Assembly: GCF_900115685.1 (NCBI RefSeq)
Contig: NZ_FOXJ01000003.1
Coordinates: forward strand, 434,001 to 498,000
DNA length: 64,000 nucleotides
Source: Variovorax sp. 770b2
GTDB taxonomy: Bacteria > Pseudomonadota > Gammaproteobacteria > Burkholderiales > Burkholderiaceae_C
Direction of reading: 5' to 3'
The notes under the pieces were generated by a model. The model searched no databases. It had not been told where the DNA came from and saw only the letters and a list, made by a program, of their open reading frames with translations. Each line of letters starts with the position of its first letter. Within the stretch, counting starts at the first letter, position 1. Of the stretch, positions 4,960 through 24,008 are shown piece after piece. The translations under genes were made by a program, and so were the position numbers.

Positions 4960-6030
4960 ATGAGTCATCGCCAGCCCGTGCGGGTCGGCGACCACCACCC
5001 CTTCGACACGATCATCGACGCCCGCTCGCCGGCCGAGTTCGCGCTCGACCACATTCCCGGTGCCATCAACTGCCCGGTGCTCGACGACGAGGAGCGCCGC
5101 GTCGTCGGCACCTTCTACGTGCAGACCGGTGCCTTCGAGGCGCGGCGCATCGGCGGCGCGATGGTCGCGGCCAACATCGCCAGGCACCTGCGCGAGACGC
5201 TGGCCGACCGGCCCGAGAAGTGGAAACCGCTGGTCTATTGCTGGCGCGGCGGCATGCGCAGCGGCTCGATGGTGACGTGGCTGAGGCTGGTCGGCTGGGA
5301 CGCGCAGCAGCTCGCCGGCGGCTACAAGAGCTTTCGCCGCCACGTCATCTCGCAGATCGATTCGCTGACCCCGCAGCTGGACCTGCGCGTGATCTGCGGC
5401 GCCACGGGCAGCGCCAAGACGCGCGTGCTGCATGCGCTGGCCGAGCGCGGCGAGCAGACCCTCGACCTGGAAGATTTCGCGAGCCACAAGGGCTCTTTGC
5501 TCGGTTCGCTGCCCGGCGTGCCGCAGCCTTCGCAAAAGCATTTCGAGACGCGCATCGCGACCGTGCTCGAAACCATCGACCTGAAGCGCCCGCTGTACGT
5601 GGAAGGCGAGAGCATCCGCATCGGCCGGCTCTCGCTGCCGCTGTCGCTGGTGGCGCAGATGCGCGGCGCGCCTTGCATCGAGGTCGCGGCCACGCCCGAA
5701 GCGCGACTGGCCTACCTGCTGCGCGACTACGCCTACCTCGGCGACGACCGCGACGCGCTCGCCGACAAGCTCGGCGTGCTCAAGGAATTGCAGGGCAAGG
5801 AAACGGTGGCGCGCTGGCAGCAATGGGCGCACGAGGCCGACCTGCCCAAGCTCTTTGCCGAACTGATGGCGCTGCACTACGACCCGCATTACCAGAAGTC
5901 GCAGGAGCTGCACTTCAAGGCCTGGGAGCGCCGCCGCAGCGTGGCGACGACCGACCTGAGCGATCAGGGGATAGAGGCAGTGGCCGATGCAGTGCGCGCA
6001 TTCGAAGGCGGCGGCAGCCCGTCCGCATAG
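4960..6030 (+). CDS. mnmH: tRNA 2-selenouridine synthase (MnmH/SelU/YbbB)
   Basis: Converts 2-thiouridine at wobble position 34 of tRNA-Lys, -Glu and -Gln to 2-selenouridine using selenophosphate from SelD. The N-terminal rhodanese domain (about residues 14-130) carries the reactive Cys94 in YCWRGGMRSG. The C-terminal domain has P-loop GATGSAKT at 146-153 that binds the prenyl diphosphate used in the geranylated intermediate. It has 356 residues, normal for the family. Its 3' end runs 67 bp into the convergent fdhD gene. Its presence means selenium serves tRNA modification as well as selenoproteins. Confidence 0.95.
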   Translation: MSHRQPVRVGDHHPFDTIIDARSPAEFALDHIPGAINCPVLDDEERRVVGTFYVQTGAFEARRIGGAMVAANIARHLRETLADRPEKWKPLVYCWRGGMRSGSMVTWLRLVGWDAQQLAGGYKSFRRHVISQIDSLTPQLDLRVICGATGSAKTRVLHALAERGEQTLDLEDFASHKGSLLGSLPGVPQPSQKHFETRIATVLETIDLKRPLYVEGESIRIGRLSLPLSLVAQMRGAPCIEVAATPEARLAYLLRDYAYLGDDRDALADKLGVLKELQGKETVARWQQWAHEADLPKLFAELMALHYDPHYQKSQELHFKAWERRRSVATTDLSDQGIEAVADAVRAFEGGGSPSA

Positions 6031-6881
6031 AGCACGCCGCGCGGCGCGCGGCACAGCCCCCAGAAGCGCAGGCCGCTGAGCTCGGCCATGCGCACGCCCA
6101 TCGCGGTGGGCGCCGAGATGGTCGCCATCGCCGCGATGCCCAGGCGCCCGCACTTGCGCACGAGTTCGTGGCTGCCGCGGCTGGACATCAGCACGAAGCC
6201 CGGCTCCTCGAGGCGCCCCGCCCGCGCGAGCCGGCCCAAGAGCTTGTCGAGCGCGTTGTGGCGCCCCACGTCTTCCATCACGTCGGTGAGTTCGCCCTGC
6301 ACCGTGGCCCAGCCCGCGGCGTGGATCGCGCCGGCTTCGGCATTCAGGACCTGGCGCGCGGGCAGTGCCGCGAAGGCGCGCAGCACGGTTTCCAGATCGA
6401 TGCGTTCGATCCAGTCGCGTGGCGGCACGGGCTGCGGCGTGATGTCCAGGCCCGCGAAACTCTCGACGCCGCAGACGCCGCATCCCGTGCGACCCGCGAG
6501 GCTGCGGCGGCGGCCTTTCAGGCGCTCGAAGCTGCGGGTGGCAATGTCCAGCTGCACTTCGATGCCGGGCATGCCCTCGGGGAGGCCCGCCGAGACGGCA
6601 TCGATGGTCTGGACTTCGATGCCGCGGCAGTCGGCCGCGCTGTCCAGGATGCCTTCGCTCAGCGCGAAGCCGAGCGCGAAGTCTTCCAGGTCGAGCGGCG
6701 TGGCCATCATCACCGCGTGCGAGACGCCGTTGAAGACCAGCGCGACCGGCACCTCGGCGGCCAGCGTGTCGTCGCGCACCGCGCCTTCAGGGGCCACGCC
6801 GCGTTCGCCGAACACGCGCACGGCGTGCCGGGAGAGCGATGGCAGGGTGTCTTCGGAATCGGCGAGGTCTGGCTGTGGCAT
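5964..6881 (-). CDS. fdhD: Formate dehydrogenase accessory sulfurtransferase FdhD
   Basis: Transfers sulfur from IscS to the molybdenum cofactor of formate dehydrogenases. The hallmark TGCGVCG motif places the two sulfur-carrying cysteines at 134 and 137; VMEDVGRHNA and SSRGSHELVRK motifs follow. The chosen start at 6881 has a GGAG 11 nt upstream; an in-frame ATG at 6911, just after the previous stop, would add ten residues. The conserved fold ends near VLYADG, so the last 20 or so residues are an extension that exists only because the frame runs 67 bp into the 3' end of mnmH. It is the last gene of the FdhF-like operon. Confidence 0.93.
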   Translation of the reverse strand: MPQPDLADSEDTLPSLSRHAVRVFGERGVAPEGAVRDDTLAAEVPVALVFNGVSHAVMMATPLDLEDFALGFALSEGILDSAADCRGIEVQTIDAVSAGLPEGMPGIEVQLDIATRSFERLKGRRRSLAGRTGCGVCGVESFAGLDITPQPVPPRDWIERIDLETVLRAFAALPARQVLNAEAGAIHAAGWATVQGELTDVMEDVGRHNALDKLLGRLARAGRLEEPGFVLMSSRGSHELVRKCGRLGIAAMATISAPTAMGVRMAELSGLRFWGLCRAPRGVLYADGLPPPSNARTASATASIP

Positions 6882-6918
6882 GGACAGGGTGGCTCCGGGT
6901 AGGCCGGCCATTGTCCGC

Positions 6919-7206
6919 TCAGCCGGCGTTTTCGTCAGCCGGGGGCAGTGTTTGAACCTGCGCGCGCCCGGGGGCTTCCAGGTGCGCGACCCAGCGGTCG
7001 TCGTGCTGCTCCACGCGCACCCAGCCGGGGCCGCGCACGCCGCCGATGGCCGCATCGCCCATCAGCGTGAGCCGGCGCATCAGCACGCTCGCACCCTGGC
7101 CCAGCCGCTTGCCCAGGCGCGGCAGCGAGACGCCGCTGCCCACCGGCTCCTGCGCGAGCATGCGCAGGATGGCGACCGAGAGGCTGTCTTCGAGCAGTGC
7201 GCTCAT
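6919..7206 (-). CDS. Small winged-helix-like protein between the FdhF-like enzyme and FdhD
   Basis: A 95-residue protein. Residues 8-50 look like a helix-turn-helix (SVAILRMLAQEP, SLPRLGKRLG, SVLMRRLTLMG) and 60-77 like a beta-wing (GWVRVEQHDDRWVAHLE), so a winged-helix fold is likely. It lies 37 bp before the fdhD ATG at 6881 (7 bp before the alternative ATG at 6911) and 55 bp after the FdhF-like gene, with a repeat element supplying the gap. I do not know its function. Context suggests an accessory or regulator for this enzyme, not a general transcription factor. Confidence 0.75.
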   Translation of the reverse strand: MSALLEDSLSVAILRMLAQEPVGSGVSLPRLGKRLGQGASVLMRRLTLMGDAAIGGVRGPGWVRVEQHDDRWVAHLEAPGRAQVQTLPPADENAG

Positions 7207-7265
7207 TCGACAACCTCTGCGCTCCGCGCTGCGTTATTCGCCCTGGGAACGGCCCGGCGCCTCAT
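7207..7265 (-). repeat. Operon-linker repeat, copy 1 (between fdhF-like and the 95-aa gene)
   Basis: On the minus strand the element begins with ATGAG, whose TGA (7262-7264) is the stop of the FdhF-like gene. It continues with the core GCGCCGGGCCG, then CCCAGGGCGAA, and ends with a purine run GCAGAGG ten bases before the ATG at 7206. Copies 2 and 3 (15430-15494 and 19987-20063) share the ATGAG start, the core and the distal purine run. Here the element fills the whole intergenic space and seems to supply both stop codon and ribosome-binding site. It is the most divergent copy. Confidence 0.6.
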
Positions 7266-9616
7266 GCAGTTGCCACCATCCCGTCCGCCGCGTCCTCCGA
7301 CAGCTTCTGGATCGGCAGCTCGTGCGGCACCAGCACCACGGGAATGGACTTGGAGGTCGGCGTGCCCGCGTTCTCGGCCACGGCCGACAGCGGCACCAGC
7401 GGATTGGTCTCGGGGTAGTAGGCCGCGATGTTGCCGCGCGGAATGTCGTAGGCCACGAGCTTGAAGCGGTCGGCGCGGCGCTCCTGTCCGTCGTTCCACA
7501 CGGTCTGCAGGTCGACCCAGTCGCCATCCTTCATGCCGAGCGCGCGGATGTCCTCGGCGTGGATGAAGACCACGCGGCGCTGGCCGAAGACGCCCCGGTA
7601 GCGGTCGTCCATGCCGTAGATGGTGGTGTTGTACTGGTCGTGCGAACGCGTGGTGAAGAGTGTGAACACCAGCGTGTCGCGGATGCGCAGGCGCGCCCGG
7701 TGCGAGGGCGTGTCGCGCGGCACGGCGTGCGTGAAGAACACGGCCTTCTTCGAGGCGGTGGCCCACACGCGCTCGCTCGCGGTGTTGCGAAGGCGAAAGC
7801 CGCCGGGCTTGGCGACGCGGGTGTTGAAGTCCTTGAAGTCGTCGAACACCGCTTCGATCTTGTCGCGGATGCGTGCGTAGTCTTCGACGAGCCAGAGCCA
7901 CGGCGTCTTGCTGCGCGCGCCGATGGTGGCGGCCGCGAGCCGCGCCACGATGGCCGGCTCCGAGAGCAGCTGCTCGGACGCGGGCGGGTTGATGCCCATC
8001 GAGATGTGCACCATGCTCATCGAGTCTTCCACCGTCACGCCCTGCGGGCCGTTGGCCTGCATGTCGATCTCGGTGCGGCCCAGGCACGGCAGGATCAGCG
8101 CCTCGCGCCCGTGCACGATGTGGCTGCGGTTCAGCTTGGTGGTCACGTGCACCGTGAGGTCGCACTGCTGCAGGCCCTTCCAGGTCTGGTAGGTGTCGGG
8201 CGTGGCGGCCGCGAAGTTGCCGCCGAGCGCGAAGAACACGCGGCCCTTGCCGTCGAGCATCGCCTGGATCGCCTCGACCGTGTCCAGGCCGTTCTCGCGC
8301 GGCGGCTCGAAGCCGAACACCTGCTGCAGCCGGTCGAGCAGCGCCACCGGCGGCTTCTCCCAGATGCCCATGGTGCGGTCGCCCTGCACGTTGCTGTGGC
8401 CGCGCACCGGGCAGGCGCCCGCGCCCTCGCGGCCCATGTGGCCGCACAGCATGAGCCAGTTGACGATCATCTGGATGGTCGCCACCGAGTGCTGGTGCTG
8501 CGTGATGCCCATGCCCCAGCAGGCGATGACCTTCTTCGCGCCGAGGTACACCTCGGCCGCGGCGCGCAACTGCTCTTGCGTGAGGCCCGATTCCTGCACC
8601 AGCACGTCCCACGATTCGGCGCGCAGATCGTCCGCGAGCGATTCGAAGCCGGTGGTATGCGTGGCGATGAAAGCGTGGTCGAGCACCGAGGCTTCGCCGC
8701 GTGCGACGAGCGCGTCTTCGCGCTCGATGACATGTTTCATCATCCCCTTCACGGCGGCGAAGTCGCCGCCCACGCGCAGCTGGAAGTAGTGCGTGCTGAT
8801 GGGCGTGGAGCCCATGGTCGCCATCTCCAGCTTGTCCTGCGGGTCGGCAAAGCGCTCCAGCCCGCGCTCGCGCAGCGGGTTGAAGCTCACGATGCGCGCG
8901 CCGCGCTTCGAAGCCGCGCGCAGTTCGCCGAGCATGCGCGGATGGTTGGTGCCGGGGTTCTGGCCGAAGATGAAGATGGCGTCGGCCTTCTCGAAATCCT
9001 CCAGCGTGACCGTGCCCTTGCCCACGCCGATCTGCGGGCGCATGCCGCTGCCGCTGGGCTCGTGGCACATGTTCGAGCAGTCGGGGAAATTGTTGGTGCC
9101 GTACTCGCGCACGAAGAGCTGATACAGGAACGCAGCCTCGTTGCTCGCGCGGCCCGAGGTGTAGAAGATGGCCTGGTTCGGGTCGGGCAGCGCGTTCAGG
9201 TGGCGCGCGATCAGCGCGAAGGCGTCGTCCCAGCCGATGGGAATGTATTTGTCGCTGGCCGCGTCGTAGGCCATCGGGTGCGTGAGGCGGCCCTGGTCTT
9301 CGAGCCAGAAATCGCTCTGCTCGGCCAGTTGCGCCACGGTGTGCTTGGCGAAGAGCTCGGGGCCGGCGCGGCGCGCGGTGGCTTCGGCCGCCACGGCCTT
9401 CACGCCGTTCTCGCAGAACTCGAAGGTCGAGGCGTGGTTGCGGTCGGGCCAGGCGCAGCCGGGGCAGTCGAAGCCGTCGGGCTGGTTGGCCGAGAGCAGC
9501 GTCTTGGCGCCCTTGAGGGGAATGTCCTGCCGCAGCAGCGCGTTCGTCACGCTGCGAAGTGCACCCCAGCCGCCTGCGGGGCCCTTGTAAAACTCGATCT
9601 TCTGCTCACTGCTCAT
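7262..9616 (-). CDS. FdhF/YdeP-family molybdopterin oxidoreductase (formate-dehydrogenase-like)
   Basis: A 784-residue cytoplasmic enzyme of the DMSO-reductase superfamily. There is no signal peptide. The N-terminal CPGC (Cys51, Cys54) probably helps bind an Fe-S cluster; molybdopterin-binding segments include FTSGRASNEAAFLYQ, FIFGQNPGTNHPRM and the C-terminal dinucleotide-binding half. It resembles E. coli YdeP and FdhF-type proteins, but no in-frame UGA is seen, so it is not a selenoprotein. Whether it oxidises formate is unproven; linkage to fdhD makes a formate-dehydrogenase-like role likely. It heads the operon fdhF-like/95-aa gene/fdhD. No Shine-Dalgarno is evident before its ATG. Confidence 0.88.
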   Translation of the reverse strand: MSSEQKIEFYKGPAGGWGALRSVTNALLRQDIPLKGAKTLLSANQPDGFDCPGCAWPDRNHASTFEFCENGVKAVAAEATARRAGPELFAKHTVAQLAEQSDFWLEDQGRLTHPMAYDAASDKYIPIGWDDAFALIARHLNALPDPNQAIFYTSGRASNEAAFLYQLFVREYGTNNFPDCSNMCHEPSGSGMRPQIGVGKGTVTLEDFEKADAIFIFGQNPGTNHPRMLGELRAASKRGARIVSFNPLRERGLERFADPQDKLEMATMGSTPISTHYFQLRVGGDFAAVKGMMKHVIEREDALVARGEASVLDHAFIATHTTGFESLADDLRAESWDVLVQESGLTQEQLRAAAEVYLGAKKVIACWGMGITQHQHSVATIQMIVNWLMLCGHMGREGAGACPVRGHSNVQGDRTMGIWEKPPVALLDRLQQVFGFEPPRENGLDTVEAIQAMLDGKGRVFFALGGNFAAATPDTYQTWKGLQQCDLTVHVTTKLNRSHIVHGREALILPCLGRTEIDMQANGPQGVTVEDSMSMVHISMGINPPASEQLLSEPAIVARLAAATIGARSKTPWLWLVEDYARIRDKIEAVFDDFKDFNTRVAKPGGFRLRNTASERVWATASKKAVFFTHAVPRDTPSHRARLRIRDTLVFTLFTTRSHDQYNTTIYGMDDRYRGVFGQRRVVFIHAEDIRALGMKDGDWVDLQTVWNDGQERRADRFKLVAYDIPRGNIAAYYPETNPLVPLSAVAENAGTPTSKSIPVVLVPHELPIQKLSEDAADGMVATA

Positions 9617-9623
9617 GCCGGCT

Positions 9624-9653
9624 AGTGTTCGCCGCGGGCATGAGGAGCGTCAA
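9624..9653 (-). promoter_or_regulatory. Candidate promoter of the FdhF-like/fdhD operon
   Basis: On the minus strand a TTGACG -35 box (9648-9653) is followed after 18 bp by AACACT (9624-9629) as a weak -10. The same TTGACG-N18-xACACT arrangement occurs before the OFA transporter (22975-23004). The weak -10 fits activator dependence. Initiation about 7 bp further would fall at or next to the ATG at 9616, implying a leaderless or nearly leaderless message, consistent with the absence of a ribosome-binding site. Confidence 0.4.
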
Positions 9654-9654
9654 A

Positions 9655-9680
9655 TTGAATCGGGACATGCGCCGATTCAA
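9655..9680. promoter_or_regulatory. Operator dyad, site 1 (perfect 9-bp inverted repeat)
   Basis: TTGAATCGG (9655-9663), eight bases, then its exact reverse complement CCGATTCAA (9672-9680). It lies directly upstream of the -35 box of the FdhF-like operon, a position typical for a LysR-type activator, and overlaps the last bases of paoC. A 33-bp stretch around it (9648-9680) matches 28 of 33 positions with 22999-23031 upstream of the OFA transporter. The binding protein is inferred to be the LysR regulator at 23061-24008. Confidence 0.65.
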
Positions 9681-11908
9681 AAAGGAAATGACGGCAGCCC
9701 CGGCAGCAGCTTGTCGAGGGTGATCGGGTAGCTGCGCACCCGCACCCCGGTCGCGTTGTAGATGGCGTTGGCCACCGCCGCGCCCGAGCCGCAGGTGCCC
9801 AGCTCGCCGATGCCCTTGGACTTGATCGGGCTCGCGAGGTCGTCCGCATCCTGCAGGTAGACCGCGTCGATGGCCGGGATGTCGGCATGCACCGGCACCA
9901 AGTATTCGGCCATGTCGTGGTTGACGAAATAGCCGTGGTGCACGTCGACCACGGCCTCCTCGGTCAGCGCCGCCCCCACGCCGAACACCATGCCGCCGAT
10001 GGCCTGGCTGCGCGCCATCTTCATGTTGAGGATGCGCCCGGCCGCGAACACGCCGAGCATGCGGCGCACGCGGGTCTCGCCGGTGTCGATGTCCACGCCC
10101 ACTTCGCAGAAGTGGGCGCCGAACGCGGCCTGCGCGTAGCGGCGGTGCAGGTCGCCGGGCTCCACGGTGCCGAGCACGCTCAGGCCTTCGGCGCCGGCCA
10201 GCTCGCCCAGTGCGCGCGATTGCCGGCCGGAGGCGATGCGGCCCCGCTCGAAACGCGCGGTCTTCACGTCGAACCCCGCGCGCCGCACGAGCGTGGCGCA
10301 CAGATCCTCGCAACCATGGAAGACCGAAGCGCCCGCGCTCGATGCGCCGATGGAGGTGATCGAGCCCGCGCCGGCCGGAAAGGCCGTGTCGCCGAGCCGC
10401 ACGCCGATGCGGTCCATCGGGATGCCGGTCATCTCCGCGGCAATCTGCGCGAGCACGGTGTAGGTGCCGGTGCCGATGTCGGTCATCGAGGTCTCGATGG
10501 TCAGGCGCCCTTCTGCATCGAGCCGCAGGCGCGCGCTCGACGGGCGCACAGAATGGTGGTGGATGGCGCTCGCCACGCCCATGCCGACCAGCCAGCGGCC
10601 CTCGCGCACCCGGCCCGGCGTGGCACTGCGGCGCGCCCAGCCGAAGCGGCTCGCGCCTTCGCGCAGGCACTCGATGAGCTTGCGGCCGGAGTAAGGCCGC
10701 GACGGCCCGCGCTCGGGGTCGCACGGGCTGTCGTTGAGGATGCGCAGTTGCACCGGGTCCATGCGCAGCTTCTCGGCGAGCTCGTCGAGCGCGACCTCGA
10801 AGGCCAGCTGGCCGCTCGCGGTGGCCGGCGCGCGCATCGCGGCGGCTTCGGGCAGGTCGAGCGGCGCGAGGCGGTGCGCGGTCATGCGGTTGGGCGCGGC
10901 GTAGAGCAGCCGCGTCTGGCGCGATGCACCCTCGTAGTAGCTGCGGCCCGGCAGGTTGCTGGTCCAGGTCTCGTGGCCGATGGCGGTGAGCCGGCCATCG
11001 GGCGTGGCGCCCAGGCGCACGCGCTGCAGCGTCGCGGCGCGCCGCGTCGTGTGGTTGAGCAGTTGCTCGCGGGCCAGCGCCGTCTTCACCGGCCGGGCGA
11101 GTTCGCGCGCCGCGAAGGCCGAGAGCACCGCATCCGCATGCGTGCGCAGCTTGGAGCCGAAGCCGCCGCCGACGAAGGCCGAGACCACGCGCACCTGCTC
11201 GACCGGCACGTCCACCATCGCCGCCACGTCGCTCGCCGCCCAGTTGGCCATCTGGTGCGAGGTGTAGAGCGTGAGCCGGTCGCCGTCCCAGCGCGCGATG
11301 GTGGCCTGCGGCTCCATCATCGCGGGGTGCTGGTCGGGCGTGGCGTAGTTCTGGTCGAGCTGCACGGGCGCCGCGTCGTAGGCGCCCTGGAAGTCGCCGA
11401 TGGCCGTGTCGGCGGCGCTCTCGCTGCCGGCGCTCGGGTCGTCGCCGGGCTTCACCGCGGTGGCCTGCGCGGCGGCCAGGTCGAAGCGGCCCGCGGTGCT
11501 CTCGTAGTCGATGCGGATCAGGAACGAGGCGGCGCGCGCCTGCTCCAGCGTCTCGGCCACGACGAAGGCCACGGCCTGCCCATGGTGCTGCACCTCGGGC
11601 CCCGAGAGCTGCGACACCAGGTTCGCGCGCCCACGCGGCACCATGCGCGGCACGTTGGCATAGGTGTAGACCAGCAGCACGCCCGGCGCGCGCCGCACCT
11701 CGGCGGTATCGATGCGGACGATGCGGCCCTTGGCGATGCCGGCCAGCACGATCCAGCCGTAGGCCGCGTTGGGCACTTCCTCGTGGTACTCGTAGCTGTA
11801 GCGGGCGCGTCCGCTGACCTTGAGCGGGCCGTCGATGCGGTCGATCGGCTTGCCCAGGATGCGCTCGCGGTCCAGCGGGCTGGGGCCGGCGGCTGTGGTG
11901 AATTGCAT
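9677..11908 (-). CDS. paoC: Aldehyde oxidoreductase, molybdenum-binding large subunit (PaoC-like)
   Basis: Catalytic subunit of a xanthine-oxidase-family enzyme, 743 residues. The N-terminal hammerhead domain (about 20-130) is followed by the molybdenum cofactor domain with AFVGGGFGSK and, near the end, GIGELGTCGSG, whose Glu is the usual catalytic base. Of the E. coli enzymes, PaoC (periplasmic aromatic and aliphatic aldehyde oxidation) is the best fit in length and partner genes. It is third in the minus-strand operon paoA-paoB-paoC. No paoD-type cofactor-insertion gene follows; its stop overlaps the operator of the next operon. Confidence 0.88.
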   Translation of the reverse strand: MQFTTAAGPSPLDRERILGKPIDRIDGPLKVSGRARYSYEYHEEVPNAAYGWIVLAGIAKGRIVRIDTAEVRRAPGVLLVYTYANVPRMVPRGRANLVSQLSGPEVQHHGQAVAFVVAETLEQARAASFLIRIDYESTAGRFDLAAAQATAVKPGDDPSAGSESAADTAIGDFQGAYDAAPVQLDQNYATPDQHPAMMEPQATIARWDGDRLTLYTSHQMANWAASDVAAMVDVPVEQVRVVSAFVGGGFGSKLRTHADAVLSAFAARELARPVKTALAREQLLNHTTRRAATLQRVRLGATPDGRLTAIGHETWTSNLPGRSYYEGASRQTRLLYAAPNRMTAHRLAPLDLPEAAAMRAPATASGQLAFEVALDELAEKLRMDPVQLRILNDSPCDPERGPSRPYSGRKLIECLREGASRFGWARRSATPGRVREGRWLVGMGVASAIHHHSVRPSSARLRLDAEGRLTIETSMTDIGTGTYTVLAQIAAEMTGIPMDRIGVRLGDTAFPAGAGSITSIGASSAGASVFHGCEDLCATLVRRAGFDVKTARFERGRIASGRQSRALGELAGAEGLSVLGTVEPGDLHRRYAQAAFGAHFCEVGVDIDTGETRVRRMLGVFAAGRILNMKMARSQAIGGMVFGVGAALTEEAVVDVHHGYFVNHDMAEYLVPVHADIPAIDAVYLQDADDLASPIKSKGIGELGTCGSGAAVANAIYNATGVRVRSYPITLDKLLPGLPSFPF

Positions 11909-11926
11909 GGTGATGCCTTCTTGGGT

Positions 11927-12928
11927 TCAGGCGGTGGTCATCGCCTGCGCCAGCGTCACATCGAGCGTGCGGCGCAGCAGGGGAATCTTGAAATCGTTGT
12001 GGCCGTGGCCGCGCGCTTCAGCGAGCAGGAGGTCGGCGACGGCACGGCGGGCGTCCGCGCCGCCGTCGGTGCCCACAAGGCGCCGCTCCGCCTCCTCGTT
12101 GCGCCAGGGCCGGGCCGCAAGGCCGCCGAAGGCCAGGCGCGCCTGCGTGACGGTGCGGCCTTCGCGCACGACCACCGCAGCCACCGAGACGAGCGCGAAG
12201 GCGTACGACGCCCGATCGCGCACCTTGCGGTAGAGCTGCCGCCCGCCGAGCGGCGCGGGCAGCACCACGGCCGTGACGAGTTCGTCCGGCGCGAGCGCGG
12301 TCTCCACGTGCGGCGTCGCGCCCGGCAGGCGATGGAAGTCGGCGATGGGAATCTGCCGCACGCTGCTGCTGCTGCTGCTGCCGCTGGCCGAGACGGTCTC
12401 CACGCGCGCATCGAAGGCGCGCATCGCCACCGCCATGTCGGACGAATGCACCGCAATGCACTGGTCGCTCGCCCCGAGGATCGCGTGGATGCGGTTGAAG
12501 CCCTCCATCGCCGCGCAGCCGCTGCCGGGCGTGCGCTTGTTGCAGGGTTTGCTGGTGTCGTAGAAGTAGAAGCAGCGCGTGCGCTGCAGCAGGTTGCCCG
12601 CGGTGGTCGCCTTGTTGCGCAGCTGGGCGCTGGCGCCGGAGAGCAAGGCACGCGCGAGCAGCGGATAGCCCTGCCGCACGCGGATGTCGGCCGCCAGGTC
12701 GCTGTTGCGCACCAGCGCGCCGATCTTCAGGCCGCCCTCGGGCGTGGCCTCGATGCGGTCGAGCCCCAGGCGGTTCACGTCGACCAGGTGCGCCGGATGC
12801 TCGATGTCCAGCTTCATCAGGTCCAGCAGGTTGGTACCGCCCGCGATGAACTTCGCACCGGGCTGGCGCTGCACGGCCGCGGCGGCGTCGGCCGGGCTCT
12901 GCGCGCGTTCGTAGGTGAAGGCTCTCAT
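11927..12928 (-). CDS. paoB: Aldehyde oxidoreductase, FAD-binding medium subunit (PaoB-like)
   Basis: A 334-residue FAD subunit that passes electrons from the Fe-S subunit. FAD contacts lie around [14 protein letters not shown] (about 25-39). Residues about 110-160 hold RCFYFYD..PCNKR.PGSGCAA and, later, [12 protein letters not shown], the cysteine-rich insertion that binds an extra [4Fe-4S] cluster in PaoB and related enzymes; this insertion argues for PaoB over ordinary CoxM subunits. A run of six serine codons (near 12361-12380) sits in a linker, probably a slippage-prone simple repeat. Its start overlaps the paoA stop by 4 bp. Confidence 0.88.
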
Positions 12929-13572
12929 GCAGTTTCTCCCGCCGCTTTTCCCGCGACCTCTCGGATGGCCTCGATGATGTTCGGATACCCCGCGCACCGG
13001 CAGATGTTGCCGCTCATGCGCTCGCGCAGTTCCTCATCGCTGAACAGCGGGCGCACGGCGATGTCGTGCGTCACATGGCTGGGCATGCCGCGGCGCATTT
13101 CGTCCAGCATGCCGACGGCCGAGCAAATCTGCCCCGGCGTGCAGTAGCCGCACTGGTAGCCGTCGTGCTTGACGAAGGCGGCCTGCATCGGGTGCAGCTT
13201 CTTCGGGTCGCCCAGGCCCTCGATGGTCGTCACCGCATCGCCGTCGTGCATCACGGCCAGCGTGAGGCAGCTGTTGATGCGGCGGCCGTTCACCATCACC
13301 GTGCAGGCGCCGCACTGGCCGTGGTCGCAACCCTTCTTGGCACCCGTGAGGCGCAGGTGCTCGCGCAGCGCGTCGAGCAGCGTGACGCGCGGATCGATGG
13401 CCAGCGACCGAGGCTGCCCGTTGATGCGCAGCGTCACGTTCGCAAGCGCCGCGGTGTCGGCGGCCGGCGCGGCATCGACACCGAGCGGCAGCGTGGCCGC
13501 CACCACGCCGGCAGCGCTGGTGACCAGCACGGCGCGGCGCGTATAGCCGTCTTTCGGGTCGGCATCGTCCAT
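12925..13572 (-). CDS. paoA: Aldehyde oxidoreductase, 2Fe-2S small subunit (PaoA-like)
   Basis: A 215-residue electron-transfer subunit with two [2Fe-2S] clusters: the plant-ferredoxin-type [10 protein letters not shown] in the first half and GYCTPGQ plus CRCAGYP in the second. The N-terminus ([13 protein letters not shown], then a hydrophobic stretch ending near DAAPA) resembles a twin-arginine signal, as in E. coli PaoA, which exports the folded PaoABC complex to the periplasm; the motif is degenerate. It is the first gene of the operon, 13 bp after the small secreted-protein gene. Confidence 0.88.
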
Positions 13573-19986: not shown

Positions 19987-20063
19987 TGGCGCACCCTTGG
20001 CGCTGCGCGCCTTCCGGCCCAGCGGGAGCGAGCTTGCCTGGGGCGGCCCGGCGCGTCGCTCAT
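19987..20063 (-). repeat. Operon-linker repeat, copy 3 (between modE-like gene and trmO)
   Basis: On the minus strand the element starts ATGAGCGACG, whose TGA (20060-20062) ends the modE-like gene. Core GCGCCGGGCCGCCCC is followed by AGGCAAGCTC, then a GC-rich stretch GGCGCGCAGCGCC and AAGGG eight bases before the trmO ATG. The 34 bp at 20030-20063 differ from copy 2 at two positions. It is the longest copy (73 bp between the genes). Confidence 0.7.
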
Positions 20064-20407
20064 GGGGCCAGCAACCGGGTCAGCGCGCGGATGTCGGCGG
20101 CCGTGGCCAGCTTCGCGGCGTTCTCGATGGCCCGGTAGTGCTTGACGATTTCCTCGCCCACCGGCGTGAGCGCCGTGCCGCCGCCGCGCGAGCCGCCGGC
20201 GGCTGTGTTCACCGCGGGCGAGGTCAGGGCCTTGTTCATCTCGTCGACCAGCATCCAGGCCCGGCGGTACGACATGCCCAGCTGGCGGGCCGCGGCAGAA
20301 ATCGAACCTGTCTCGGCCACGGCCTCGAGCACGGCGATCTTGCCGGGGCCGATGGCGATGGTGTCGTCCCGATAGACGCGCAGGCGGAACTGGACTTTGG
20401 ATTTCAT
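20060..20407 (-). CDS. Short ModE-type winged-helix regulator
   Basis: A 115-residue DNA-binding protein matching the N-terminal domain of ModE: KIAVLEAVAETGSISAAARQ and LGMSYRRAWMLVDEMN form the helix-turn-helix, and a Gly-rich wing precedes LTPVGEEIVKHYR. It lacks the C-terminal molybdate-binding (molbindin) domains, so any metal sensing must come from elsewhere. The start at 20407 gives the standard MKSKV.. opening. It lies beside a molybdenum-related lipoprotein and 1.6 kb from modBAC, which makes molybdate regulation likely. Confidence 0.82.
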   Translation of the reverse strand: MKSKVQFRLRVYRDDTIAIGPGKIAVLEAVAETGSISAAARQLGMSYRRAWMLVDEMNKALTSPAVNTAAGGSRGGGTALTPVGEEIVKHYRAIENAAKLATAADIRALTRLLAP

Positions 20408-20466
20408 CTTGGCGCGAAGGGTAAACCATGCGGGGCCGCCATTGTCCGCCCGCGGCCGCACGGCGC

Positions 20467-20490
20467 CGTCATGCAAGAATAAATACAGCG
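20467..20490. promoter_or_regulatory. Weak ModE-like site between the modE-like gene and the lipoprotein gene
   Basis: CGTCATGCA-N6-AATACAGCG has the same 9+6+9 layout as the site at 18576-18599. The right half resembles AACATAGCG, the left half is poor. It lies 27-50 bp before the GTG of the lipoprotein and 60 bp before the modE-like gene, which suits autoregulation. It contains an AT-rich AGAATAAAT that could be a -10. Confidence 0.22.
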
Positions 20491-20516
20491 TCCCCTTCGG
20501 GAAACGAGGAGTCCCC

Positions 20517-21104
20517 GTGAAAGATCGAACGTTGTTCCCGCGCCGGCTGTGCGGCGCTGCCGTGGTGGCGGCCCTGCTGTCGGTGCTCGCGGGCTGCGCG
20601 GCGCCCGGCGGCGCGCCGGCCGGTGCCGCTCCCGCTCCCACAACGGCAGCGGCAGCGGCAACGGCAGCCGCCAGCGCAGGCGAGTCGCCCAGCTTCACCG
20701 TGTCGGGCGCCGTCGCCCGCCGCGCCACCTTCGACCTCGCCGCGCTGAAGGCGCTGCCGCCCATCACGCAAACGGTCGGCAGCAACACCTACACCGGCGT
20801 GAGCCTGTGGACCCTGCTGAACGACAGTGCGGTCGGCCTGAAGCCCGACACGGCCCTGCACAACCCGATGCTCTCGATGTATGCGCTGGTCACCGGCACC
20901 GATGGCTATCGGGCGGTGGTGGCGCTGGGAGAAATCGCGCCGGAGTTCGGCAACCGGCCCGCGATCGTGGCCTACAGCGTGAACGGCGCGCCGCTGGGCC
21001 GGAGCGGCATGGCGCGCCTGGTGGTGACCGGCGACAGCAAGCCGGGCCGGTCGGTGGCAAGGCTGGCGGCGATCGAGGTGTTCGCCGCAAAACCTGGTCG
21101 CTAA
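20517..21104 (+). CDS. Lipoprotein with molybdopterin-oxidoreductase (sulfite-oxidase-like) fold
   Basis: A 195-residue protein. The GTG start at 20517 is preceded by GAGGAG; a lipobox LAGC marks the acylated Cys at about 28. An Ala-rich linker follows, then about 140 residues (SFTVSGAV, FDLAALKALP, YTGVSLWTLLNDS, VALGEIAPEFGNRPAIVAY) resembling PF00174-type domains. After the lipid Cys there is no further cysteine, so the usual Cys ligand of molybdenum is missing. It may bind molybdate or cofactor without catalysis; function unknown. It is divergent from the modE-like gene. Confidence 0.7.
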   Translation: MKDRTLFPRRLCGAAVVAALLSVLAGCAAPGGAPAGAAPAPTTAAAAATAAASAGESPSFTVSGAVARRATFDLAALKALPPITQTVGSNTYTGVSLWTLLNDSAVGLKPDTALHNPMLSMYALVTGTDGYRAVVALGEIAPEFGNRPAIVAYSVNGAPLGRSGMARLVVTGDSKPGRSVARLAAIEVFAAKPGR

Positions 21105-21224: not shown

Positions 21225-22922
21225 TCAGTTGAAGAACTTCACCACGCTGCCGAGCGTCCTGTAGACACCCCAGGCAAGGGGAATGCCCACCGCCGCCCAG
21301 GCCAGCATCACGAAGACCGGGCTCACCGTGTCGGCGCCGCCCGAGCCGCTGCCCACTTCGGCGGCCGAGGCCTTTTCGTGCGCGAGCTTCTTCTCGACGG
21401 CCAGTTCGGCCTCGGTCATGAAGTGCTTGTCGGCCACCGGGCGCACCAGCAGGTTGGCGATGAAGCCGATGGCCAGCATGCCCACGAGGATGTACATGGT
21501 CTGGTTGTAGACCTGCTCGCGCGGCAGGCCCAGGCCCAGCTGGTACTCGCGCATGTAGTTCACCACCACCGGGCCGAGGATGCCGGCCGTGGCCCATGCC
21601 GTGAGCAGGCGGCCATGGATGGCGCCCACGAACTGCGTGCCGAACAGGTCGGCCAGGTAGGCCGGCACCGTGGCAAAGCCGCCGCCGTACATCGACACGA
21701 TGATGCAGCACGCGCCCACGAACAGCAGCTTGCTGCCCGCACCGGCCGACGAGGGAATGCTCGCGTACAGGATCGCGCCCAGCACGAAGAACACCGTGTA
21801 GGTGAGCTTGCGGCCCAGCTTGTCCGAGAGACTGGCCCACACGAAGCGCCCGCCGATGTTGAAGAGCGACAGCAGCGCCGTGAAGCCGCCGGCCACCACG
21901 GCGATCGCCGCGAGCTGCACCTTGTCGAGCTCGCCGAATTTCTGCGACACGCCGACGAGCGCGCCGCCGAACACTTCCTGCAGCATCGGCGAGGAGATAC
22001 CGATCACGCCGATGCCGGCGCTCACGTTCATGCACAGCACCAGCCACACGAGCCAGAACTGGGGAATGCCCCAGACCTTCTTCACGTGCACGTGGCGCTG
22101 CGTGATCATGGCGTTGCCGGTCTGCGCCGGGGGCGGCGTCCAGCCTTCGGGCTTCCAGCCCGAGGGCGGCACGCGGTAGCCGAGCGCGCCGGCCATCATG
22201 AAGACGAAGTAGCCCAGCGCCATCACGACGAAGGTCTGCATCACGCCCACGTCGGTGGCGCTGGAGAAGCGCTTCATCAGGTCGACCGCCAGCGGCGAGC
22301 CGATCATCGCGCCGCCGCCGAAGCCCATGATGGCCATGCCGGTGGCCATGCCGCGGCGGTCGGGGAACCACTTGATCAGCGTGCTCACCGGCGAGATGTA
22401 GCCAAGGCCCAGGCCAATGCCGCCGATCACGCCCGAGCCGAGGATCATCAGCCAGAACTGGTGCAGGTGGATGCCCACGGCCGACAGCAGCATGCCGCCG
22501 CACCAGCACGCAGCCGACACCACGCCGGCCTTGCGCGGACCGGCCCGTTCGAGCCAGCCGCCCCAGAGCGCCGCCGAGCAGCCCAGGAACACGAAGAACA
22601 GCGTGTACATCCAGCCGAGGGTGGCCACGCGCCAGTCGCAGTGGGTGGCGAAGAGTTCGGCGAAGAAGCTCATCTCCTTCGCGCAGGCCTGCGCGCCGTG
22701 GCCGGCGGTGCCCAGCGCCTTCGACAGAGGCAGCCAGAACACCGAGAAGCCATAGGCCATGCCGATGCACAGGTGGATGGCCAGTGCGGCCGGGGGAACC
22801 AGCCAGCGGTTGAAACCGGGGCCCGCGATGATGCGTTCTTTATCCAGGAAGCCGGGTTGCTGCTGCACCCCTTCTCCAGCCATGCGCTCTCCATCGAGAA
22901 CGCCCGCAGTTGAGCCTGCCAT
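21225..22922 (-). CDS. OFA-family MFS transporter (oxalate/formate antiporter type)
   Basis: A 565-residue permease with about twelve membrane helices. Features: ALAIHLCIGMAYGFSVFWLPL for helix 1, the MFS loop DRRGMATGMAIMGFGGGA between helices, and a soluble C-terminal stretch before the last helix. OFA members carry oxalate, formate or other small carboxylates. The start at 22922 has AAGGAGAA seven bases upstream. Its promoter shares an operator with the FdhF-like operon, and a LysR gene lies directly upstream, so a formate or related substrate is a reasonable inference. Confidence 0.85.
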   Translation of the reverse strand: MAGSTAGVLDGERMAGEGVQQQPGFLDKERIIAGPGFNRWLVPPAALAIHLCIGMAYGFSVFWLPLSKALGTAGHGAQACAKEMSFFAELFATHCDWRVATLGWMYTLFFVFLGCSAALWGGWLERAGPRKAGVVSAACWCGGMLLSAVGIHLHQFWLMILGSGVIGGIGLGLGYISPVSTLIKWFPDRRGMATGMAIMGFGGGAMIGSPLAVDLMKRFSSATDVGVMQTFVVMALGYFVFMMAGALGYRVPPSGWKPEGWTPPPAQTGNAMITQRHVHVKKVWGIPQFWLVWLVLCMNVSAGIGVIGISSPMLQEVFGGALVGVSQKFGELDKVQLAAIAVVAGGFTALLSLFNIGGRFVWASLSDKLGRKLTYTVFFVLGAILYASIPSSAGAGSKLLFVGACCIIVSMYGGGFATVPAYLADLFGTQFVGAIHGRLLTAWATAGILGPVVVNYMREYQLGLGLPREQVYNQTMYILVGMLAIGFIANLLVRPVADKHFMTEAELAVEKKLAHEKASAAEVGSGSGGADTVSPVFVMLAWAAVGIPLAWGVYRTLGSVVKFFN

Positions 22923-22974: not shown

Positions 22975-23004
22975 AGTGTGTCTGAACGTTTTACACGCCG
23001 TCAA
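22975..23004 (-). promoter_or_regulatory. Candidate promoter of the OFA transporter
   Basis: TTGACG (minus strand, 22999-23004) and CACACT (22975-22980) with an 18-bp spacer, matching the arrangement before the FdhF-like operon. Predicted initiation leaves a leader of about 45 nt with a good ribosome-binding site. Confidence 0.4.
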
Positions 23005-23005
23005 A

Positions 23006-23031
23006 TTCGATCGGCGCATGGGCCGATTCAA
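23006..23031. promoter_or_regulatory. Operator dyad, site 2 (upstream of OFA transporter)
   Basis: TTCGATCGG (23006-23014), eight bases, CCGATTCAA (23023-23031); seven of nine positions are symmetric, and the right half is identical to that of site 1 at 9672-9680. Spacing to the -35 box is the same as at site 1. The LysR gene ends 30 bp further upstream. Confidence 0.65.
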
Positions 23032-23060: not shown

Positions 23061-24008
23061 TCAGTCGCCGCCGAGCGTCCCGCTGTGCAGGCGGACCTGC
23101 TCGGCCCATTCGGGCGTCTGCAGGAAGGCCAGCGCCGCATCGAGCGCGCGCGAAGAGCGCACGCCGTCCTGCGTCATGAAGCCGATGGGCGTGCGCACCT
23201 CGGGCGCCACCAGCGGCAGCGCCTCCAGCTCGCGGTGGCTGCGCACGGCCGCGACCATCGCGCCCGGCAGCACGCTGCTGACGGTGCCCGCGCTCACGGC
23301 CAGCGTGAGCGTGAGCACCGAGTTGGTCTCGATGGCGGGCGCCACCGGCACGCCGGACTCGCGCAGTGCCTGGTTCATGATGGCGCGGTTGTGCATGTCG
23401 GTCGTGAGCAGGCACAGGGGCTGCCTGGCCGCCTCGGCCCAGGTGATCGGCTGGCCGATGTGCAGCTCGTCCGCCGAAGGCGTCTCGGCGCGCCGCAGCA
23501 GGAAGTAGTGCTCCACGCTCTGCGGCCAGGCCGTGAGCTTGATGCCCGGCAGGTGCATGCGCTCGGTGTAGCCCAGGGCCAGGTCGATGGAGAGGCTTTC
23601 CAGGCCGGTCTCCAGGTCCTGCGAACTCATCGACAGCACGACCGGCACGATGCCCGGGTGGCGCTGGTGCAGCATGGCCGCGAAGCGCGAAAGGATCGGG
23701 ATGGCGGTGGGCACGGCGGCCATGCGCAACCGGCCGTGCGGGTTGTCCACGTCGCTGCGCAGCTCCTGCAGCAGCACCTCGTTGTCGCGCAGCATGCGCT
23801 GCGCCGTGGCCAGCACGCGCTCGCCCTCGTGCGTGAGGCCCACGTAGACGCGGGCGCGCTTGACGATGACCACGCCGAACTCGGTTTCCAGCGCCCGCAG
23901 CGCGTTCGACAACGCGGGCTGGGTGATGTGGCAGGCCTGCGCGGCGCGGCCGAAATGCTTGTGCTCGCTCAGGGCGACCAGGTAGCGCATCGAAGCGAGC
24001 AGGTTCAT
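23061..24008 (-). CDS. LysR-family transcription regulator
   Basis: A 315-residue regulator. The N-terminal helix-turn-helix (HFGRAAQACHITQPALSNALR, about 18-38) is followed by a linker helix and the two-lobed ligand domain from about residue 93 (LRMAAVPTAIPILSRF). It is co-directional with the OFA transporter, 138 bp upstream of it. Part of the shared operator lies at its own start. It is the obvious candidate regulator of the transporter and the FdhF-like operon; ligand unknown, formate or oxalate being plausible. Confidence 0.9.
   Translation of the reverse strand: MNLLASMRYLVALSEHKHFGRAAQACHITQPALSNALRALETEFGVVIVKRARVYVGLTHEGERVLATAQRMLRDNEVLLQELRSDVDNPHGRLRMAAVPTAIPILSRFAAMLHQRHPGIVPVVLSMSSQDLETGLESLSIDLALGYTERMHLPGIKLTAWPQSVEHYFLLRRAETPSADELHIGQPITWAEAARQPLCLLTTDMHNRAIMNQALRESGVPVAPAIETNSVLTLTLAVSAGTVSSVLPGAMVAAVRSHRELEALPLVAPEVRTPIGFMTQDGVRSSRALDAALAFLQTPEWAEQVRLHSGTLGGD

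Follow-up and report, generated by a model that had tools for sequence, protein, structure and literature searches.

Results

Genes and promoters at the locus

Two promoters 13 kb apart in the window (the whole 64-kb stretch analysed here, DNA of the soil bacterium Variovorax) carry closely similar dyads directly ahead of their -35 boxes, one at a gene for an FdhF/YdeP family molybdenum oxidoreductase and the other between a LysR-type regulator gene and the gene of an MFS transporter (Table 1). At site 1 the gene order is paoC - dyad - fdhF - fdhD, with the stop codon of paoC overlapping the dyad. This paoC closes a PaoABC-like set of periplasmic aldehyde oxidoreductase genes (9677-13572); in several relatives modC, rather than Pao genes, lies directly ahead of the site. 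Between the two promoters are modABC (assigned from their translations), a ModE-like gene, trmO and a two-component system. The ModE-like regulator (20060-20788) scores just below the cut-off of TIGR00637 and has HTH_1 as its sole Pfam match, and its gene overlaps an opposite-strand open reading frame (20397-21104) with a weak Oxidored_molyb match.

Table 1. Coordinates within the window of the two promoters and of the genes that they adjoin
Feature	Position	Strand	Description
fdhD	5964..7055	-	formate dehydrogenase accessory sulfurtransferase, start codon uncertain; TIGR00129 177 bits (cut-off 141); PF02634
fdhF	7262..9616	-	FdhF/YdeP family molybdenum oxidoreductase; TIGR01701 974.5 bits (cut-off 582)
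-10 box AACACT	9624..9629	-	18 nt from -35; ends 7 nt ahead of fdhF ATG
-35 box TTGACG	9648..9653	-	fdhF promoter; one base (T) from site-1 dyad
Putative operator, site 1	9655..9680	-	26-bp dyad TTGAATCGG-CGCATGTC-CCGATTCAA (9-N8-9), before fdhF
MFS transporter gene	21225..22922	-	OFA/SfMCT group by likeness, 565 aa; NF049980 (SfMCT) 290.7 bits, below cut-off 320
-10 box CACACT	22975..22980	-	transporter promoter; 18-nt spacer from -35
-35 box TTGACG	22999..23004	-	transporter promoter; one T after site-2 dyad
Putative operator, site 2	23006..23031	-	dyad TTGAATCGG-CCCATGCG-CCGATCGAA (N8 spacer), between lysR and transporter gene
lysR	23061..24008	-	LysR-type regulator, candidate binder of both sites; PF00126 and PF03466; co-directional with transporter gene

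When the fdhF product was aligned to FdsA (6tg9), its Cys184-His185 and Arg405 fell at the Cys-His pair of FdsA and at the Arg of PLRGQNN, which we take to be catalytic residues of formate dehydrogenase. With a family model matched above its cut-off and these active-site residues in place, the FdhF-like protein qualifies as a predicted formate dehydrogenase.

The transporter falls well below the cut-offs of the oxalate/formate antiporter models (TIGR00890, 135 against 375; TIGR04259, 114 against 335), and as its scores stay under every membership cut-off we regard it as a relative of OFA and SfMCT rather than as a proven member. The only two solved relatives found were SfMCT (6g9x), followed by OxlT (8hpj). 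SfMCT is an L-lactate/monocarboxylate transporter, from which the window protein differs by an extra domain that is fused to its C-terminus as a tail (NF047966, MFS transporter small subunit; 39 bits, cut-off 24). Given that the protein is nearer to SfMCT than to OxlT, formate is a likelier substrate than oxalate, and the transporter probably carries formate.

The first-pass annotation had described a perfect 9-bp dyad with an 8-bp spacer beside TTGACG ahead of the FdhF-like gene, and this is what lies at site 1. It is the sole perfect dyad of this arm and spacer length in the window, where 9-bp dyads with other spacer lengths (0-20) do occur. As a correction, the dyad at site 2 is imperfect. 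The reported likeness between the 33-bp stretches at 9648-9680 and 22999-23031 is borne out, with 28 of 33 positions identical and the -35 box included, as is the common 18-nt spacing to a weak xACACT -10 at both sites. The next-best same-orientation matches of 33 bp in the window reach 19/33 to site 1 and 20/33 to site 2; on the reverse strand both dyads align with themselves and with each other at 21-23 of 33 positions, and other places at 20 or fewer. Both dyads are centred near -50 and adjoin the -35 box.

A scan for the sigma-70 consensus called no promoter at site 1, because the -10 is weak. The fdhF -10 (9614-9629 region) is 7 nt from the ATG, and in the loci of twelve close orthologues (L115-L126, one of them the window's own) dyad and start are 38 bp apart. 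Given this short distance and constant spacing, we predict a leaderless fdhF mRNA.

Rarity of the dyad in the genome

A search of the whole genome (7,452,180 bases, 16 contigs) for the dyad pattern TTGAATCGGNNCATGNNCCGATNNAA gave just these two places at ≤1 mismatch, so that the motif is not scattered at random, as it might have been had the proposed regulon been spurious. At ≤3 mismatches there is one extra place (L003, 2 mismatches), and a reversed control pattern likewise has one. We rejected L003 as an operator, since it overlaps the ATG start codon of an unrelated LysR gene. Off-target matches like L003, which was itself read, recur in many congeners among the matches listed.

The first-pass annotation had also judged chance similarity of the two sites to be very unlikely. 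This stands for a pair at promoters (about 3e-6 by a rough simple model that assumes about 60 promoters x 50 offsets) but not for the window as a whole, in which the same simple model expects about 0.1 such pairs among all pairs of places. The pair is strong by itself only because both copies sit at promoters. Alone it is suggestive and not conclusive, and it is the comparison with relatives that settles the matter.

Conservation within Variovorax

A search for FdhF in Variovorax gave a match in 37 of 61 genomes, paralogues included. We read the upstream regions of 30 orthologues (83-100% identity), leaving out 21 paralogues (48-62%). The dyad is present at ≤2 mismatches in 24 of the 30, at 38-59 bp ahead of the aligned start, and all 24 of these sites have TTTGAC behind the dyad, with the same promoter layout across the orthologues. 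Together with the family-wide loci described below (27 of 30 beside formate genes), this is the recurrence ahead of orthologous genes that a shared regulon predicts.

Six Variovorax orthologues are without a clear site (L135, L137, L139, L141, L143 and L144). In five of them apbC (L135), lysR (L139, L141) or the MFS gene (L143, L144) lies upstream within the flank, and degenerate sites with 4-5 mismatches occur in L139, L141 and L143.

Across the genus, 79 of 100 genomes carry the pattern at ≤3 mismatches, off-target matches of the L003 type included. The loosest of these matches are no evidence by themselves, because at the same tolerance most of the genus genomes also have about one match to the reversed control; weight falls on the close matches and on where they lie. 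In 20 larger genus loci the site lies before fdhF and/or behind lysR.

Distribution in the family and the order

Among 299 genomes of Comamonadaceae, 32 match the dyad with its -35 box at ≤3 mismatches and none matches the reversed control. The search gave 38 rows with strand duplicates, corresponding to 30 loci, every one of which was covered, and lysR, MFS, fds or fdhF genes lie beside the site in 27 of them. We treated the remaining three as chance matches: L059 and L071 have no relatives of the query genes nearby, and L060 has only a 44% NuoF-like match.

From these 30 we selected 20 larger loci, those omitted being mostly weaker. In all 20 the site is followed by formate genes (shown by tblastn in 19 and by reading in L095), and 18 have a LysR gene upstream, the exceptions being L095 and L100. 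At L095 (6366-6910) a site that looks intact precedes a fragment of fdsG, and no other formate gene was matched in this 15-kb locus, which is probably a decayed operon. Family-wide, the site precedes two kinds of fds operon, operons with an OFA-type transporter, and FdhF-FdhD.

Of 291 genomes sampled from the order outside the family, two match, each with 3 mismatches, and these (L105, L106) were treated as chance. As far as the pattern can see, the operator appears to be restricted to the family Comamonadaceae.

Loci found through the LysR gene

Searches that started from the regulator rather than from the motif gave a similar picture. The LysR gene is found at E ≤1e-75 in 86 of the 299 family genomes. 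Loci from 70 of these genomes were read, and in 36 of them a site with no more than 5 mismatches lies in the 400 bp that follow LysR, compared with 6 of 1,400 mononucleotide shuffles.

A second set comprised the best 80 of at least 526 relatives, the nearest of which are Variovorax strains with a LysR protein up to 97% identical. A formate gene (MFS, fds or fdhF) lies within 600 bp in 53 of these loci, and 46 of the 53 have a site at ≤4 mismatches; in the 27 loci with no formate gene within that distance, none has a site even at ≤5 mismatches (46/53 against 0/27, Fisher p 3e-15, with rows that are not independent). In one of the 27, L273, LysR is directly followed by fdhD, which the count did not treat as a formate gene, and there is no site. 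Among the 27 are 14 loci in which a formate gene follows 0.6-3 kb further on, and in 10 of these 14 the site stands before that gene at ≤4 mismatches. The other four (L304, L308, L315 and L317) have a common variant, TGTGATCGACCCATGTGCATC followed by CAATTTGACG, in the same layout. The site thus mostly stays with the formate operon when other genes separate LysR from it. In the seven loci of the 53 without such a site the dyad is absent or badly degenerate, and in four of these seven, the Variovorax loci L271, L274, L275 and L277, the -35 and -10 are kept between lysR and MFS with the dyad absent.

A matrix built only from 12 unique FdhF sites was then applied to the regions downstream of LysR, a comparison that involves no circularity between the gene groups, in loci that are related, partly redundant and not independent. 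With a formate gene present, 96 of 109 regions beat all 150 shuffles; with none present, 0 of 41 regions scored above shuffles. These counts and the 46 of 53 above place an operator beside the regulator gene and ahead of the target operon, as expected of a LysR-type system.

Structure of the operator

Reduced from 154 unique sites, 80 non-redundant ones give a consensus of approximately TTGAATC(G/A)N3CATG(T/C)N2-3 GATTCAATTTGAC, followed after about 18 nt by an xACACT-like -10. Across the 80 sites, T6, A13, T14, A21 and A26 are each occupied 75-80 times (A13 75/80, T14 78/80, A26 80/80) and T1 58 times; these counts are biased, since the pattern, together with a -35 filter, served to select the sites. 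The T-N11-A spacing that is the signature of a LysR box occurs twice, from T1 to A13 and from T14 to A26. The centre of the dyad is even, which is unusual for a LysR box; T-N11-A is nevertheless present in each half.

Discussion

Alternative readings of the dyad

The likeness of the two sites could in principle be due to chance or to a recent duplication that serves no function, and the expectation for the window as a whole leaves some room for this. We consider it extremely unlikely, given that both promoter sites are kept across the genus and that the site stands before formate genes in the family far beyond what shuffles give. Somewhat less remote, and in our judgement still very improbable, is a role as RNA, in which the dyad would form a terminator or attenuator hairpin for the upstream genes paoC and lysR. 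The dyad does follow the stop codons of both genes, and its 9-bp stem has a folding energy of -11.6 kcal/mol (z -1.86), which 8 of 200 shuffles equal or better. However, there is no T-run, and 0 terminator-like sites were found in 9500-9800; the dyad is upstream of the -35 and so is not transcribed by its own promoter. No covariation of the arms beyond column composition was detected in the 80 non-redundant sites, and therefore a protein site fits better than an RNA stem. The dyad also goes mostly with the downstream formate operon rather than with the 3' end of lysR (10/14), and it is kept before fdhF where modC, not paoC, precedes.

If the dyad is a protein site, the adjacent LysR gene is the best candidate for its regulator, as gene and site tend to occur and to vanish together. 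The LysR gene is missing at E ≤1e-90 from 9 of 100 Variovorax genomes, three of which are only 58-73% complete, and eight of the nine have no match at ≤3 mismatches; the other, G055, has two matches with 3 mismatches. Among the genomes with LysR, 78 of 91 have a match at this tolerance, off-target matches included. The protein itself matches PF00126 (HTH_1) and PF03466 (LysR substrate domain) above gathering scores, which marks it as LysR-type, and a Foldseek search with an AlphaFold2 model built from 23 sequences (mean pLDDT 78.7, pTM 0.67) groups it with full-length LysR-type regulators, the top match being OxyR at 23-24% identity. The best PDB neighbours in both sequence and structure are OxyR chains. 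The model confirms the fold and is silent on the ligand. We think it likely that the neighbouring LysR-type protein reads both sites and controls formate uptake and oxidation. The dyad might instead be the operator of another regulator encoded elsewhere, with the LysR gene as a mere fellow traveller. Site 1 has no adjoining LysR gene, and in two of the 20 larger family loci (L095 and L100, the latter with its site 684 bases from the start of the contig) there is no LysR upstream. Yet LysR is upstream in the other 18, and site and LysR share presence and loss, including in G054 (L135), where both are gone and fdhF is retained behind apbC; T-N11-A occurs at T14 in 78/80 and at A26 in 80/80, in a set picked with a pattern that names both. 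On balance we find a regulator other than LysR rather improbable. Compatible with a LysR operator, and a little easier to entertain, is the idea that LysR responds to something other than formate itself (oxalate, a C1 intermediate or redox state) or that it acts mainly as a repressor. A ligand is not readable from sequence, and the best neighbours in the PDB are the OxyR chains noted above; on the other side, formate oxidation and the transporter are what the sites share across species, and the nearest named model of the protein is CynR, whose inducer, cyanate, is also a small C1 anion. Such a different signal or sign of control seems to us unlikely, if by no means far-fetched.

A possible formate switch in the Comamonadaceae

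Returning to LysR as the regulator of both promoters, we infer a mechanism from what the sequences show, namely the sites, how they are conserved, the way in which they track formate operons, and the presence of the LysR gene alongside them. This mechanism would involve LysR binding, activation, formate as the signal and formate transport. A LysR dimer or tetramer would sit on the 26-bp dyad near -50, beside a promoter whose TTGACG -35 is close to consensus and whose xACACT -10 is poor. Upon a small-molecule signal, most likely formate, LysR would help RNA polymerase to start transcription. In the window species one promoter would drive the monocarboxylate (probably formate) transporter, and the other the Cys-containing FdhF/YdeP formate dehydrogenase together with the sulfurtransferase FdhD. 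In relatives the same switch would drive fds operons, directly or behind the transporter gene, and an fdhF that lies apart from the transporter operon tends to carry its own copy of the operator.

With somewhat more confidence than doubt, we suggest that this amounts to a Comamonadaceae-wide regulon. It would be governed by a formate-sensing LysR, of a family other than the PBP_like regulators discussed below, through a 26-bp even-centred operator that abuts the -35 and consists of two back-to-back T-N11-A boxes meeting at CATG. Its members would be interchangeable modules (two kinds of fds, and FdhF/YdeP-FdhD) and one formate importer, with a displaced module keeping or gaining its own copy of the operator. 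A search of the open literature, with subscription papers mostly outside it, found no description of this regulon, and the small formate regulon is apparently undescribed.

Formate is an inexpensive feedstock, and promoters that respond to it are useful tools. Should it be confirmed, the system would offer a compact promoter-regulator pair for Variovorax and its relatives, and it would place the FdhF/YdeP protein and a likely formate importer in a regulatory context.

Comparison with known formate regulators

The genome of the window also has a second, canonical fds operon (L112:4839-11775), with its own different LysR and no dyad. Given this separate operon without the site, the regulator proposed here would not cover all formate dehydrogenases of the genome.

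In the sister family, canonical fdsB is found in 53 of 100 genomes. We read 30 fds loci, two of which start too late to show the region; in the 28 scored, the best match to the dyad in the 250 bp before fdsG has at least 6 mismatches, and neither LysR was matched in the stretch. The four loci read in detail have a divergent open reading frame upstream of fds, and the two regulators scanned there (L220:3-833 and L224) carry the PBP_like domain PF12727, which is related to a domain of a molybdopterin biosynthesis protein. These regulators are thus divergent from fdsG and of the PF12727 type, whereas the window LysR has PF03466 and PF00126 only and is co-directional with the transporter gene. A LysR search of 120 sister-family genomes at E 1e-60 came back empty, a result that carries no weight. 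The observations suggest that the two sister families differ in the protein family of the regulators that they place on formate dehydrogenase operons.

We considered whether the window LysR could be the FdsR of Cupriavidus necator, presumably the regulator of the fds operon there, and dropped this identification given the sister-family fds operons with a PBP_like regulator and no dyad; the distinction is drawn through those sister-family regulators. The FdsR/PH16_RS03165 system of Cupriavidus necator (Ralstonia eutropha) is described as formate-inducible, with 4.5-fold induction and a Km of 130 uM (PMC7057948). In Methylosinus trichosporium OB3b a LysR gene beside fds is annotated as fdsR, and the available portion of that paper gives this as an annotation only, with no operator and no transporter/FdhF regulon (PMC3615186). 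For Azoarcus, a link of formate dehydrogenase genes to BoxR has been suggested (PMC6449761).

Closer in sequence are the LysR proteins of two Azospirillum plasmids (L113, L114), which are 36-39% identical to the window protein and encoded directly before fds genes; the gaps between their LysR and fds genes show 7-8 mismatches to the pattern, that is, no such dyad. The position of these distant homologues ahead of fds genes speaks for formate as the signal. Among named models the nearest NCBIfam relative is CynR, the LysR-type activator of the E. coli cyn operon, which the window protein matches at 129.6 bits, far below the cut-off of 277, and the target genes of the two differ. Set beside these systems, the mechanism we propose would be a familiar local LysR-type switch that has been reused at a second, distant promoter, and the novelty would lie in the content of the regulon and in its operator.
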